Below, in pieces: positions 33,129-38,233 of a DNA stretch of 64,000 nt. The notes under the pieces were generated by a model. That model was not told the origin of the DNA and made no database searches. It saw only the letters and a program-made list of their open reading frames with translations. Source of the DNA: Bacteroidia bacterium (GTDB lineage: Bacteria; Bacteroidota; Bacteroidia; J057); assembly GCA_030430575.1 (NCBI GenBank), contig JAUIKF010000020.1:62001-126000 (forward strand), read 5' to 3'. Each line of letters begins with the position of its first letter. The stretch's first letter is position 1. The position numbers and the translations under genes are program-made.

Positions 33129-34625
33129 TTATAAGATATAAGGCGCCAAGGCATCTGCTAATTTGCGGTCATTGCTGAGCCGGGGAAATTTATTTTGCCC
33201 CCCAAGCTTACCCACAGATTTCATGTATTCTCTGGATGCTCCCACCTTGAGGGGAGTGATCTTGGCGCGTTGCAGAATATTGCCAGAACGAAGGTCCTGA
33301 TAGTAGGGGTTTTTTGCCTGAAGTTTTTGGTCCAATACTTCCGAAAAATATGCAAGGTCATCAGGTCTATTCACAAACTCGATCAGCCATTCATGGCAGG
33401 AGTCTCCTTTGTCCTTTTGGATGGAAGGGGCAACGGTAAATTCCTGGAATTCGCCGCCCGCCTGTTTGACGGCTTCCATGATGGCAAAATTCACCTCTTC
33501 AGAAATCACATGTTCCCCAAAGGCAGACAGAAAGTGCTTCACACGTCCAGAAACCCTTATTTTATAGGGATCCAGCGAGACAAACTTCACGGTATCGCCA
33601 ATATCATACGCCCACAGCCCCGCATTGGTAGAGATGATCATGGCATATTGTTCCCCCAACTCCACTTCTTCCAGTCCTAGGCGGGGGGCATTTTCACTTC
33701 CATATTGATTCAGGGGAATGAATTCATAAAAGACGCCATTCCTTGGCAATAGGAGTAGGCCATCATCAGCTTGTGAATTTTGAATGGCAAAAAAGCCTTC
33801 AGAAGCAGGGTAGACCTCTACCATGTCAACGCTGTCTCCCAAATATTTGTCAAATATTGGGCGGTAGGGGTTGAAGTCCACGCCTCCTTGAACAAAGATA
33901 GAAAGATTGGGCCAGGCCCCTAAAGGAGATTTGCCATGACTGGCTTCTAGCTCTTCAAAAAACATTTGAACCCAAGGTGGAATCCCCGAGATCAAGCGCA
34001 AATCCTTGTCATGTACTTCACTGGCTATGGCCTTTACTTTATCCTCCCAATCTTCGATACAATTGGTCTCATAAGTAGGCACGCGATTAGATAATAATAC
34101 CCCAGGGACAAAGTGATTGACTATTCCTGATAATCGACCAACTTTCAACCCATGATTATTCATCTCTATCTCTGGACTGCCAGAGAGAAACATCATTTTG
34201 CCGTCAAAAAATGAGGCATTTCCAGTTTCGGCAGCATATAGTAGCAGCGCATCACGAGCAGCTGCGATTTGGTTGCGAATGGATACTTTGGTTAAAGGAA
34301 TGTATTTAGCACCTGAGGTCGTACCTGAGGTTTTGGCCAAATAAATAGGCTTCCCTGGCCACGAAACGTCTGGCTCTCCCTGATAAATTCTGTCAAAATA
34401 AGGTTTTGCGGCCTCATAACTCCTGACAGGAACAGCGGAAATAAAATCCGCATGTGTGCGGATATCTGAAAAGTGGTGATCTTTTCCAAATTGCGTATGC
34501 TGCGCTTTGGCGAGCAATTGACCGAAGGTCTTTTGTTGCCAAAAGCAAGCGCGCTTACTTTCTTGTTGAATTTGTCGTGCGCGAAATCGCGCGATTTGCA
34601 ATGCTGCAAAGGACTTTATTCCCAT
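33129..34625 (-). CDS. GH3 family acyl-adenylate-forming ligase
   Basis: A 498-residue protein of the GH3 (auxin-responsive promoter) family. It has the AMP-binding loop AKTSGTTSGAKYIPLTK, a middle motif EVYPASEGFFAIQ, and AYDIGDTVKFVS. Plant GH3 enzymes join amino acids to acyl acids; the bacterial substrates are unknown. The N-terminus is basic and helical (ALQIARFRARQIQQESKR) but not a signal peptide. It is followed in the same direction by the FKBP gene only after 100 bases, and preceded 98 bases upstream by the MarR gene's stop with a terminator between, so it is probably separate. Confidence 0.88.
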   Translation of the reverse strand: MGIKSFAALQIARFRARQIQQESKRACFWQQKTFGQLLAKAQHTQFGKDHHFSDIRTHADFISAVPVRSYEAAKPYFDRIYQGEPDVSWPGKPIYLAKTSGTTSGAKYIPLTKVSIRNQIAAARDALLLYAAETGNASFFDGKMMFLSGSPEIEMNNHGLKVGRLSGIVNHFVPGVLLSNRVPTYETNCIEDWEDKVKAIASEVHDKDLRLISGIPPWVQMFFEELEASHGKSPLGAWPNLSIFVQGGVDFNPYRPIFDKYLGDSVDMVEVYPASEGFFAIQNSQADDGLLLLPRNGVFYEFIPLNQYGSENAPRLGLEEVELGEQYAMIISTNAGLWAYDIGDTVKFVSLDPYKIRVSGRVKHFLSAFGEHVISEEVNFAIMEAVKQAGGEFQEFTVAPSIQKDKGDSCHEWLIEFVNRPDDLAYFSEVLDQKLQAKNPYYQDLRSGNILQRAKITPLKVGASREYMKSVGKLGGQNKFPRLSNDRKLADALAPYIL

Positions 34626-34719: not shown

Positions 34720-35184
34720 TTATGCTTCTCCGATAAATGGAGATGCTTTTTCAAGTGTTTCTACCAAAGCAGTATTATTTTTGCTGGTTGATGCACCCGA
34801 AATTTTCTCTGCTAGATCAGCTACTTGCTGGTTATATTCTTCGAGCATTTTCTTGCCCTTCTTGGTTAAGGTAACTAAAATAGATCTTCTGTCTTCTTTA
34901 GAATTCACACGCTTCACGAGGTTCAGGCGCTCAATCTTATCTACGAGGCTGGTGAGGGTACTAAATTTAATTTTAAAACGCTCACCAATTGCTTTCATTC
35001 GCTGAGGACCTTCTTGGGAAATAAACAGGATAATTTCCATTTCATTGGCCGAGATCTTGTACTTCTTGCGGATTTCATTCTGATGATGCCTGAATGCATC
35101 GCGCATGTTCAATAGGTGTTTAGTTAAATCGTCTGTTTTCATAACTTCTGTAGGGTTTCCATTACTTTTACTGACACGTGCCAT
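34720..35184 (-). CDS. MarR family winged-helix regulator
   Basis: A 154-residue protein with the MarR fold: helices around KKYKISANEMEIILFISQEG, recognition region QRMKAIGERFKIKFSTLTSLVDK, and the wing VNSKEDRRSILVTLTKKGK. It would bind DNA as a dimer. No palindromic operator is obvious in the 445-base upstream region. Target genes and inducer are unknown; the GH3 gene downstream is a candidate target only because it is adjacent. Confidence 0.9.
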   Translation of the reverse strand: MARVSKSNGNPTEVMKTDDLTKHLLNMRDAFRHHQNEIRKKYKISANEMEIILFISQEGPQRMKAIGERFKIKFSTLTSLVDKIERLNLVKRVNSKEDRRSILVTLTKKGKKMLEEYNQQVADLAEKISGASTSKNNTALVETLEKASPFIGEA

Positions 35185-35629
35185 GATCTTTGAATTTGGT
35201 TATTTTCTGAAATTACTGATTCTCTTTGAAAAGAGATTTCTTGAATAAGGTTATATTCGACAATATGCAAAATTCACTGCAATAATCAAAGGACTTTTTA
35301 CTATTCTCAAATTAGTTTCATTAGCTTCTTATTCTTTGGATATTGTCAAAAATTGAATTTATTTTTTCACCATTAGACGGTCCCTATACGGGTCGGTCAC
35401 TATTTGGTTGTGATAAGTTTAAATAATTATCAATCCTCAAAACATTACGTGAAAATTATCCCTGCATAAAGTGTCGTTTATCCAACATTTCTTCAATACG
35501 AAGAATAAAAATGATTGACATTCAGACAATTAGGGAGAATTTCTCTTTAAAAAGCTGTTTACACAATTTTCACACTTTTCTACTCAAACGGCACTATATG
35601 CCATTATGTTTTAAGTCATGGAGAATTTT
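35185..35629. other. Non-coding region between MarR and the CHAT gene
   Basis: The 445 bases are AT-rich and hold no supported gene; the one short plus-strand frame in it (from 35511) runs into the 3' end of the CHAT gene and has no recognisable domain or ribosome binding site. There is no strong hairpin after the CHAT stop codon. The promoter of the MarR gene should be here but could not be placed. Confidence 0.5.
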
Positions 35630-38233
35630 TTATAGAGAATATTTGCCAATTCTATACATTAATCGATTAAGGATAGAGGTATTTTTCAAAATGTCTTTCA
35701 TAAACTCTTTGACCGTGTGGTATCGCCTGTAAGGGTCTGGGTGAATCGCACGAAAGAGGGTCTTGCTTATCCGACGTGGTATATGGCGATTGCGTTGCCT
35801 CAACATCCGATAAAGCTTCTCATCTGAGTCAGGATGATACTCAGATAATCGATGACCGATCAAAATTTCAAAAAATATGGCACCAAGCGCATAGATGTCT
35901 GTACGCTTATCTGGACTTTGGTTTCCAGCTACTACTTCAGGCGGCATATAATCCAATGTACGCTCGCCCGAGCGGGTTTTCCAGTCATTGCCTGCGATGA
36001 CAATGCTGGGGTCATTCATGATTTCCCCAAACATAAAGTCAATTATTTTGGGGTATTGGCTATCAGCTAGGATGATCTTTCTTGTCTTAAGGTTGCCATG
36101 CATCATGCCATAGGAGGTCTCCCCCTCGCGATCTATATACTCCATGGTATGGGCAGCATGTAGGCCTTCACAAATCCATAAGGCGGCATGAGCTAATTGA
36201 GTCAGTTTGAATCTACTGAGTCTTGGAATGTCAAAATTTATTTTATCCAGCCGCTCTCCATCCACTAATTCTCGAATAATGTAAATATACTCTTTGTCCC
36301 CCAAGGTTCCCCACCCTTTTACCTGAACTACATTAGGGTGATTGAGGTGTATAAGCGCTTGAGCATTTCTTCTCAGGATTCTTTCTGCTTGATCAAATCC
36401 ACTTCGAATCCTATGGGAGAGCTTGATGGCCACTCTTTCGGTCTCATCTTTTTCATTTACCCCGATAAATACAAACCCTTGCCGCCCTTCTCCCAAAAAT
36501 TCAGCAATACGATAGCCCGAGAGCGTTTTTCCAATCACAGAATCAATGACTGCCTTGGGATCTTCATGCTCCTCTGCATAAGCGATCTCCATGACACTGA
36601 GAGATTCCTGTTTTTTAGAAAGTGCAGCACGTAAGTCCACCAAAAAAGACTCTACCCAAGCATAGCGCTGGGAGGGGTCAGGATCGATCGCTTTAAAAAT
36701 AGCATTTGATAGTCTTCGAGGCACACTAGGGTTTACTTGCTGAAAAATGGTGTGGACCTTTTCTTCTGTCAGTAAGTCAATCGTACTTAAAGGTTGGCCT
36801 GAAATAATGGAGAAAAACATGGCGCCTAAGCCATATATGTCTGTTTTTTTGGTTACACCTGCCTGACCAGAGGCTACTTCTGGAGGCAAGAAATCAAGTG
36901 GATTTTCGTCAGGTTTGCTTTTCTCTTCCTCCTCAGGGCCATCAGGTACCAGAAAAGTAATCTCTTGGGCCTTAGAGAAGTCCGCAAACAGAAAGTCAAT
37001 CAACTTGGGGATTCCAGATGGTGTAAAACGGACTTTTTTGGCCTTAATATTTCCATGTACAACTCCATCTTGGACAGCCCCATCATCTGTCGTAAAACTC
37101 AGATTATGTGCCAATAAGATCCCCTCACACAATTGAATTGCATATCCAATCATTCTATCCCAGCCTGTCTCATCAAATTCACTTACTCCAAAATCCATTT
37201 TGTCCATCCGCTCTCCCTTGACGAGCTCCATAATAACATACATATAGTCTTGTCCTATGGGAGCGGCATCTATTACCTGCACGAGGTTGGGGTGCTTAAG
37301 TTTGTGTAAAGCGCGATTTCCATTGGTAATTATCCGCTTCACATCTTCAAAACCTTCCAGGATTCGGTGAGTAATTTTTATGGCTACTTCATTGTGAAAA
37401 TTTTCATGGACAGCTTTGAAGACAAGGCCAAAGGACCCGATCCCCAAAAGTTTTACAATTTTATAGTTGTTGAATACTTTGCCAATAAAGGAATGGGCTA
37501 TCGCTTCTGCCATTGACATTTCCTCTCCTGTATCGATGAACCCCCCAAACAATCGCCAATAGGCTGCTTTATTGTCTGCATTCTCAGCATTATTCACAAA
37601 GAATCGCCAGGGAAATTGCACTTTTTCCTGTTCCTTTCGCTTCCGCCAAAAAAGCCCCCGACTAATGTCTTCTTGTACATTTTGCGTATTTCCAAGCAGC
37701 AGTGCCTCCGCCTCTGTAAAAGACTCTTCTATGTTGGCACCACTCGCCATGCCTCTATAAAATCGCTTCGCAAATAATACGGCCTGTTGGTCATTGATCT
37801 TAGTGGCCGTAACTACCACAGCGGGTATCCCTGCTTCTATCAATAAGTCCGCATGTTCTTGGGTGGCACATCCATTCAGAAACACCAGGTGTAGCCCTTG
37901 CTGGACGCTGAGAAATCTTGCCAGGCTCATCGAAGAGAGGCCTTGGTTTCCTCCCTGTTCCGTTTCCAAAAACAGTTCATCCTCATCGGCATGACCCGCA
38001 TAATGAAAAACCCTAATCCGTCCTTCTAGCCAGGGATCTTGAAAAGCATCAGCAATCTCCGCCAAGGTAGCGGCAGGCATGAGCTTGAGCTCCACTTTAC
38101 CTGCTCGTACAGCGGGTTCAAGCCCCCTCAATAGAGAACTTAGTTCTACCGTCAAACCACGCAAAAATCCGTGTTCGCTACGCTCATTGGACATTGCGAC
38201 ACAGATCACAGGTACATTAGGATTGGCTGGCAT
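35630..38233 (-). CDS. CHAT-domain protease fused to two degenerate Ser/Thr kinase domains
   Basis: An 867-residue cytoplasmic protein. Residues 1-210 are a CHAT (caspase-like) domain with the catalytic His in FHYAGHAD (about 81) and Cys in LNGCAT (122), both intact. Kinase-like domain 1 is at about 256-540: glycine loop GIGSFG, VAIK lysine at 286. Domain 2 is at about 572-850: GEGRQG, VAIK lysine at 604. Where active kinases have HRD, both have HGN (393-395 and 712-714), so the catalytic aspartate is lost; DFG is DFL or DFM. PPEV and DIYGLG/DIYALG motifs remain. The two kinase parts resemble each other and probably arose by duplication. Expected role: a protease regulated by pseudokinase sensing or scaffolding. 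It is divergent from gdhA and has no obvious operon partner. Confidence 0.85.
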   Translation of the reverse strand: MPANPNVPVICVAMSNERSEHGFLRGLTVELSSLLRGLEPAVRAGKVELKLMPAATLAEIADAFQDPWLEGRIRVFHYAGHADEDELFLETEQGGNQGLSSMSLARFLSVQQGLHLVFLNGCATQEHADLLIEAGIPAVVVTATKINDQQAVLFAKRFYRGMASGANIEESFTEAEALLLGNTQNVQEDISRGLFWRKRKEQEKVQFPWRFFVNNAENADNKAAYWRLFGGFIDTGEEMSMAEAIAHSFIGKVFNNYKIVKLLGIGSFGLVFKAVHENFHNEVAIKITHRILEGFEDVKRIITNGNRALHKLKHPNLVQVIDAAPIGQDYMYVIMELVKGERMDKMDFGVSEFDETGWDRMIGYAIQLCEGILLAHNLSFTTDDGAVQDGVVHGNIKAKKVRFTPSGIPKLIDFLFADFSKAQEITFLVPDGPEEEEKSKPDENPLDFLPPEVASGQAGVTKKTDIYGLGAMFFSIISGQPLSTIDLLTEEKVHTIFQQVNPSVPRRLSNAIFKAIDPDPSQRYAWVESFLVDLRAALSKKQESLSVMEIAYAEEHEDPKAVIDSVIGKTLSGYRIAEFLGEGRQGFVFIGVNEKDETERVAIKLSHRIRSGFDQAERILRRNAQALIHLNHPNVVQVKGWGTLGDKEYIYIIRELVDGERLDKINFDIPRLSRFKLTQLAHAALWICEGLHAAHTMEYIDREGETSYGMMHGNLKTRKIILADSQYPKIIDFMFGEIMNDPSIVIAGNDWKTRSGERTLDYMPPEVVAGNQSPDKRTDIYALGAIFFEILIGHRLSEYHPDSDEKLYRMLRQRNRHIPRRISKTLFRAIHPDPYRRYHTVKEFMKDILKNTSILNRLMYRIGKYSL

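Follow-up and report, generated by a model that had tools for sequence, protein, structure and literature searches.

A predicted CHAT protease joined to a degenerate kinase fold is conserved across a family of Bacteroidota

In the window (the whole stretch of 64,000 nucleotides of contig JAUIKF010000020.1 that we analyzed), the minus strand encodes a protein of 867 amino acids that joins a CHAT caspase-like protease module to two kinase-like domains, which we call K1 and K2. The open reading frame at 35630-38233 runs for 867 codons without a stop; the original prediction placed the gene correctly and omitted its strand. In Pfam, the protein matches CHAT (PF12770) at residues 35-185 (E = 1e-12, 48 bits, with a cut-off of 24) and Pkinase in two stretches (E = 2.5e-48, together 165 bits), and no other domains were found. 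The features of the locus are listed below, with the evidence for each in parentheses.

35630..38233, minus strand: CHAT-pseudokinase-pseudokinase gene, 867 aa (ORF, Pfam, orthologs)
37589..38233, minus strand: CHAT caspase-like protease module, residues 1-215 (PF12770; profile match to 8tl0)
37991..37993, minus strand: predicted catalytic His81 in HYAGHAD (invariant in 28 CHATs)
37868..37870, minus strand: predicted catalytic Cys122 in LNGC (invariant in 28 CHATs)
37598..37612, minus strand: PWRFF, the PWxL-type end of the CHAT module (alignment)
36566..37486, minus strand: first pseudokinase K1 plus linker, residues 250-556 (Pfam, HMM, AF2)
37376..37378, minus strand: K1 beta3 Lys286 of VAIK (Lys kept in 14/14 domains)
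37319..37321, minus strand: K1 Gly305 in place of the alphaC Glu (Glu lost in 14/14 domains)
37049..37057, minus strand: K1 HGN, residues 393-395, in place of HRD (15/15 domains)
37034..37036, minus strand: K1 Lys400 in place of the HRD+5 Asn (15/15 domains)
36989..36997, minus strand: K1 DFL, residues 413-415, in place of DFG, with Asp413 kept (alignment)
35684..36529, minus strand: second pseudokinase K2, residues 569-850, the probable genus-specific duplicate (Pfam, trees)
36422..36424, minus strand: K2 beta3 Lys604 of VAIK (alignment)
36092..36100, minus strand: K2 HGN, residues 712-714 (alignment and DNA loop pattern)
36077..36079, minus strand: K2 Lys719 in place of the HRD+5 Asn (alignment)
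36032..36040, minus strand: K2 DFM, residues 732-734 (position in the protein)
35633..35683, minus strand: cationic C-terminal tail, residues 851-867 (possible membrane-binding helix)
34720..35184, minus strand: MarR-family regulator, a conserved neighbor (ortholog and synteny comparison)
33129..34625, minus strand: GH3-family enzyme, a conserved neighbor beyond MarR (Pfam, synteny)

The CHAT module looks intact, as originally predicted: the His in HYAGHAD and the Cys in LNGC are both present, and this dyad is unchanged across 28 aligned CHATs. The PWxL-type end of the module recurs in alignments of many CHATs that are joined to other modules, and P208 and W209 of PWRFF are invariant among the orthologs. 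Because matches to the kinase domain filled the Foldseek lists, we assessed the CHAT fold by profile. When a profile of the CHAT subfamily was compared to solved structures, the sole CHAT match was 8tl0, a SAVED-CHAT protein (E = 3e-24). (SAVED is a kind of domain that responds to cyclic oligonucleotides.)

The rest of the protein has a Hanks-type kinase fold, as indicated by the Pkinase profile match and by a structural match of Z about 25 to PknB and Stk1. More precisely, the kinase part of the AlphaFold2 model of a one-kinase ortholog superposes on Stk1, PknA, and PknB at Z about 25, with an rmsd of 2.5-3.1. Mean pLDDT was 85 for the window protein and 88 for this ortholog. Neither model has a confident packing of CHAT against kinase (pTM 0.62 and 0.52), and the linkers, which are flexible in the models, have low pLDDT. 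Because the linkers and the domain packing are low-confidence, the models are silent on how the domains touch, and an inhibitory interface is not seen.

To compare active sites, we built an alignment of 15 kinase domains recovered from 13 genomes and added three kinases that retain HRD, including two from the window's genus. Pseudokinases have been defined by the loss of at least one of the beta3 Lys, the HRD Asp, and the DFG Asp (PMC12599244), and in all 15 domains here, Asn stands in for the HRD Asp. Within the window protein, the sequence had been read as lacking the catalytic Asp in both kinase domains while keeping the VAIK Lys and a DF-hydrophobic motif. Both statements hold: HGN replaces HRD at 393-395 and 712-714, and the kept residues are Lys286 with DFL in K1 and Lys604 with DFM in K2. 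Two further losses had been missed, namely the alphaC Glu (Gly305 in K1, Asn623 in K2) and the Asn at HRD+5 (Lys400 and Lys719). Across the family, HGN and the change from Asn171 to Lys (HRD+5) are each found in 15/15 domains; the alphaC Glu is absent from 14/14, with Gly, Asn, Lys, or Ser instead; and the Gly of DFG is replaced by Leu, Met, or Ala in 15 domains. The Lys at HRD+2 is variable. The residues that are retained include the beta3 Lys (14/14), the His of HRD (15/15), the Asp and Phe of DFG (15/15 and 14/15), the alphaF Asp (15/15), and the Glu of APE (15/15). Thus, conservation across the 15 domains indicates that the spine (His and Phe) and the pocket are held while the catalytic base, the second metal ligand, and the alphaC Glu are gone.

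The mean entropy of the alignment columns is 1.76 bits, and 23 of the 303 columns are invariant. Since these few columns include the altered residues of the site along with the kept ones, the altered residues appear to be under strong constraint. Also, a 33-base DNA pattern that represents the HGNxKxRK loop was found in 6 of 395 genomes of the class, each time in this gene, and the reversed control gave 0 hits. A loop that is invariant in 15/15 domains, with a pattern that is confined to this gene, is not due to chance. These comparisons show the putatively dead site to be ancestral and constrained, unlike a site in neutral decay. Given the residues that are missing, the kinase fold is most likely unable to transfer phosphate. 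The Lys at HRD+5 would occupy the metal site, which suggests either metal-free binding or a locked pocket; this Lys may exclude Mg-ATP. In one genome (G009), K2 lacks two of the three glycine-loop glycines, so K2 may be unable to bind nucleotide.

The CHAT-pseudokinase gene, or a fragment of it, was found in all 13 of the sampled genomes from this GTDB family of Bacteroidota, which represent 10 genera and are mostly metagenome assemblies. (The count includes full-length genes and fragments at contig edges, and every match covers some kinase-domain sequence of this type; for G011, we have only a piece from the kinase end.) Two kinase domains are found only in the two genomes from the window's genus; the relatives that we recovered from other genera have one kinase domain and are ~550 amino acids long. 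If close relatives had kept HRD, then the loss would be a local decay, which had been proposed as grounds for refuting the original prediction. This refutation fails: none of the 15 kinase domains from the 13 family genomes retains HRD.

Outside the family, we found no single ORF with CHAT and kinase domains in samples of the class (395 genomes) or the phylum (395 genomes). Nor was the fusion found in a 294-genome sample of the phylum around a planctomycete locus with the same type of CHAT, in five further genomes that encode CHATs (of which two are very rich in kinases), or in plasmids or phages. These searches covered samples, with the top candidates from each genome scored, and a wider spread is possible. 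In the phylum sample, the kinase part alone matched one genome that does not belong to the family, and the matched sequence has a canonical HRD. Some matches of other CHATs past residue 236 seemed to be kinase fusions, but HMM searches found no kinase there, and we rejected them. Six alphaproteobacterial CHATs of the same subfamily (L087, L088, L097, L102, L105, and L107) have a C-terminal region of ~400 residues; in L087 and L097, this region is similar throughout, with the terminus LVEEFREA, and no kinase was detected in it.

In a phylogenetic tree of CHAT modules, those from the family form a single clade (97/96), with the window's genus nested within the one-kinase lineage. In a tree of the kinase domains, there is moderate support (85/89) for grouping K1 with K2, which makes it most likely that they are tandem duplicates, within the window's genus, of one ancestor that was already dead. 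The simplest account is that the catalytic residues were lost once and that a tandem duplication in one genus followed, with K2 keeping the original C-terminal tail. On the basis of the two trees, we rejected independent losses of the catalytic Asp in two copies in favor of one loss before the duplication. The original prediction had argued that loss of the same residue in both copies points to a selected non-catalytic role. Such a role is supported by conservation across the family, but because K1 and K2 most likely descend from a dead ancestor, the argument from both copies counts one event twice. Within our samples, the fusion shows an apparently single origin in one family, and the double-pseudokinase form is, as far as the trees tell, a genus-level derivative.

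The C-terminal tail is net positive in 12/12 relatives (charges of +1 to +9). It is amphipathic in only some of them (shuffle p from 0 to 0.67), and given this unevenness, membrane binding is only a lead: the cationic tail may contact the membrane.

An ortholog of the MarR-family regulator is present in 13/13 family genomes and adjoins the CHAT gene in 9 of them. The link is interrupted by a contig break in one genome and is absent from the three genomes of a single genus (g4). In many genera, MarR lies about 285-480 bp downstream of the CHAT gene and is followed by GH3. In three genomes (G010, G008, and G001), the shared gene order extends several genes further, so the linkage to MarR may be plain ancestral order. 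The CHAT-pseudokinase gene does not share a tight operon with any partner. It has no conserved gene upstream, the side on which EACC1-caspase systems encode their single-TM partner. The GH3 neighbor scores 393 bits against the model for the lyso-ornithine lipid synthetase OlsH, for which the curated cut-off is 620. The gap between the CHAT and MarR genes (35185-35629 in the window, and about 285-480 bp in the linked genera) is AT-rich. Some of these gaps share a stretch resembling GGAAATATTAC, which may be a MarR operator; no conserved RNA, tRNA, or small ORF was evident in the gaps. The conserved MarR-GH3 pair is perhaps involved in membrane lipid control.

It had been noted that no gasdermin or other obvious substrate gene lies beside the CHAT-pseudokinase gene. 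We likewise recognized no gasdermin-like gene beside it, but the MarR and GH3 genes are conserved neighbors. We considered MarR as a substrate of the protease and rejected this idea, for which synteny is the sole support; the link is broken in genus g4. The flanking genes that we scanned have Pfam matches of other kinds or none, and we recognized no defense-type genes beside the CHAT-pseudokinase gene. Also, the protein has no iSTAND match and there are no MoxR or vWA genes among the scanned neighbors, so this is not a ternary system of the iSTAND/MoxR-vWA type.

Known systems share parts of this arrangement. In 8tl0, as here, a CHAT protease is joined to one regulatory domain, but there the regulator is an N-terminal SAVED domain, whereas here it is a C-terminal pseudokinase and there is no CRISPR link. 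The TPR-CHAT protein of Craspase (Csx29) is likewise a CHAT protease that is switched by an attached module, but the module is TPR, the partner is Cas7-11, and there is no kinase fold (PMC10028731, PMC9729208). Caspase-like peptidases at the N-terminus of inactive STANDs have been published (PMC7159879). Those ternary conflict systems also join a protease to an inactive module of an NTP-binding type, but iSTAND is not a kinase, and MoxR and vWA are encoded as partners. In fungi, a review of cell death reports that gasdermin-linked proteases (S8 or CHAT) can join predicted kinase-like domains (PMC12881547). Unlike our protein, these are fungal and gasdermin-linked; which protease is paired with the kinase-like domain, and its catalytic state, are not told there.

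Among bacterial pseudokinases, the described groups ActPs1-3, GLW, CP1, DYD, and DLHK also have a Hanks-type fold that lacks some catalytic residues (PMC12599244). The combination VAIK/HGN(x4)K/DF[LMA] fits none of the descriptions that we consulted. For instance, ActPs2 has beta3 Lys to Arg, HRD Asp to Asn, and a deletion of DFG, and only the change of HRD Asp to Asn is shared, as both the Lys of beta3 and the Asp of DFG persist here. DYD pseudokinases have beta3 Lys to Arg and DYD, whereas Lys and DF[LMA] are kept here; and CP1 pseudokinases have a linked COG3899 ATPase domain, whereas this protein has only CHAT and Pkinase. The text of this 2025 review does not contain the terms CHAT domain or caspase or words beginning with HGN- or Bacteroid-, and it describes no bacterial pseudokinase that is joined to a caspase-like protease. 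The parts and the logic of the fusion are already known, and in the open-access literature we found no description of a bacterial CHAT joined to a fixed dead kinase.

We propose that the protein is a stand-alone regulated protease in which the pseudokinase, without catalysis of its own, acts as a switch on the CHAT module, and we consider this somewhat better than an even bet (roughly 0.55). The N-terminal CHAT, with its kept dyad, is predicted to be a caspase-like cysteine protease. The C-terminal pseudokinase would hold the protease off or promote its self-association, and the protein would change state when a partner protein or a ligand, such as a nucleotide, binds the altered but strictly kept pocket. 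In the window's genus, the switch protein would have a tandem-duplicated pseudokinase. The cationic tail may anchor the protein to the membrane. Of the possible inputs, sensing of ATP or peptides, as originally suggested, is plausible. We infer the gating, the binding of a ligand or partner, the membrane contact, and the cleavage of some target. The switch reading draws on the constant CHAT dyad, the held pocket, the presence of the gene across the family, eukaryotic precedents, and the fusions of paralogs to switch modules. In the same genome, CHAT paralogs are joined to iSTAND, with MoxR-like ATPase genes alongside, or to nSTAND1-WD40. Since the C-terminal partner in this CHAT subfamily is often a switch or sensor, the pseudokinase occupies the place of one. 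A fuller version of this proposal, which we consider less likely than not, is that the protein represents a new class of bacterial caspase-like protease. It would be switched by a pseudokinase with a remodelled and possibly metal-free pocket (Lys72, Asn166, Lys171, and Asp184), and would have been fixed in one family of Bacteroidota to serve regulated proteolysis in the everyday life of the cell, not mobile phage defense.

VRK3 is unable to bind ATP, so HGN alone is uninformative about nucleotide binding. This motif is found in VRK3 and in the JH2 domains of JAK1-3 and TYK2 (PMC2639636), and also in DYG-bearing entries of a compilation of kinase-like non-kinases, among which receptor guanylyl cyclases are counted (PMC2754085). 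The sharing of HGN with eukaryotic pseudokinases is presumably convergent. As in our proposal, RNase L, the JAKs, and receptor guanylyl cyclases use a dead kinase to control a fused enzyme, but they are eukaryotic, and the fused enzyme is an RNase, a tyrosine kinase, or a cyclase. The pseudokinase of RNase L is a platform for dimerization, and ATP binding stimulates the RNase (PMC4718504); guanylyl cyclases become constitutively active if the pseudokinase is deleted (PMC2754085).

The roles of the two parts could instead be reversed, with CHAT cutting its own linker upon a signal to free the pseudokinase as an effector, such as a decoy or a dominant-negative binder of kinases or their partners, a role that has been proposed for inactive domains in conflict systems. 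This is unlikely, even though the linker is flexible in the AlphaFold2 models. In EACC1 systems, the caspase domain at the N-terminus is constant while the C-terminal domain is one of many alternatives, for which autoproteolytic deployment was proposed, and the kinase domains in related conflict systems mostly have broken catalytic residues (Kaur and colleagues, PMC7159879). But EACC1 and MoxR-vWA systems have partner genes, and we recognized none among the scanned neighbors. Furthermore, the C-terminal domains of those systems are changeable, whereas 10 genera have all retained the same pseudokinase here, and its pocket is more constrained than the surface of a decoy would require.

We similarly doubt that the protein is an anti-phage effector of abortive infection, like SAVED-CHAT or the CHATs that activate gasdermins, with the pseudokinase as the sensor of infection. 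Its best match among solved CHATs, 8tl0, is a protease tied to type III CRISPR; PADLOC reports a SAVED_CHAT match (E = 3e-4); and the same genome has CHAT paralogs of the conflict type. However, typical defense genes are mobile and patchy, whereas this gene is in every family genome, in largely vertical synteny and with no recognized defense neighbor. The kinase matches from PADLOC are generic to the fold. In particular, its PD-T4-6 matches have no curated cut-off and appear to be generic in this way, and the protein scores 215 bits against NCBIfam's MADS6 model, below the curated equivalog cut-off of 460, so by this score it does not belong to the PD-T4-6/MADS6 kinases.

It is more doubtful still that the kinase fold is an enzyme with changed chemistry, which would use the invariant Lys72, Asn166, Lys171, and Asp184 to modify the protease or its substrate. 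SelO is a pseudokinase that proved to be enzymatically active with changed chemistry. Another, the bacterial SidJ, is reported to catalyze polyglutamylation (PMC6858067), and in our alignment the altered residues vary no more than the kept ones. But the HRD Asp, the HRD+5 Asn, the alphaC Glu, and the DFG Gly are all missing, the HRD+2 Lys varies, and no particular reaction is indicated. Finally, local decay, in which two kinase copies are degenerating in one strain, is ruled out for practical purposes by conservation of the same altered motif in 15 domains from 13 genomes and by frames that are open with no internal stops.

To our knowledge, few bacterial pseudokinases have a known function. 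If the pseudokinase is a switch on the CHAT protease, then its output could be read directly as protease on or off, so that the long-standing question of what bacterial pseudokinases bind, and how they signal, could be tested in one polypeptide of ~550 residues. Such a switch would, in addition, bring to prokaryotes the logic of RNase L, JAKs, and guanylyl cyclases, in which a dead kinase controls a fused enzyme.

The CHAT paralogs in the same genome are at several other loci. At L044:243-8869 (C61) and L046:2436-10325 (C90), a CHAT-iSTAND gene is followed by a MoxR-like AAA_5 gene and then by a gene for a very large repeat protein, with PKD/WD40/WG or PKD/TPR/lectin repeats. These two loci look like the published iSTAND ternary conflict systems. 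A two-gene arrangement, in which an nSTAND1 gene comes immediately after a CHAT gene, occurs at both L045:9102-14301 and L048:9485-14880; in one of these, WD40 repeats accompany nSTAND1. The same genome also encodes an LRR-Roc-COR protein (L049:9087-12596) with a weak match to CHAT at its C-terminus.
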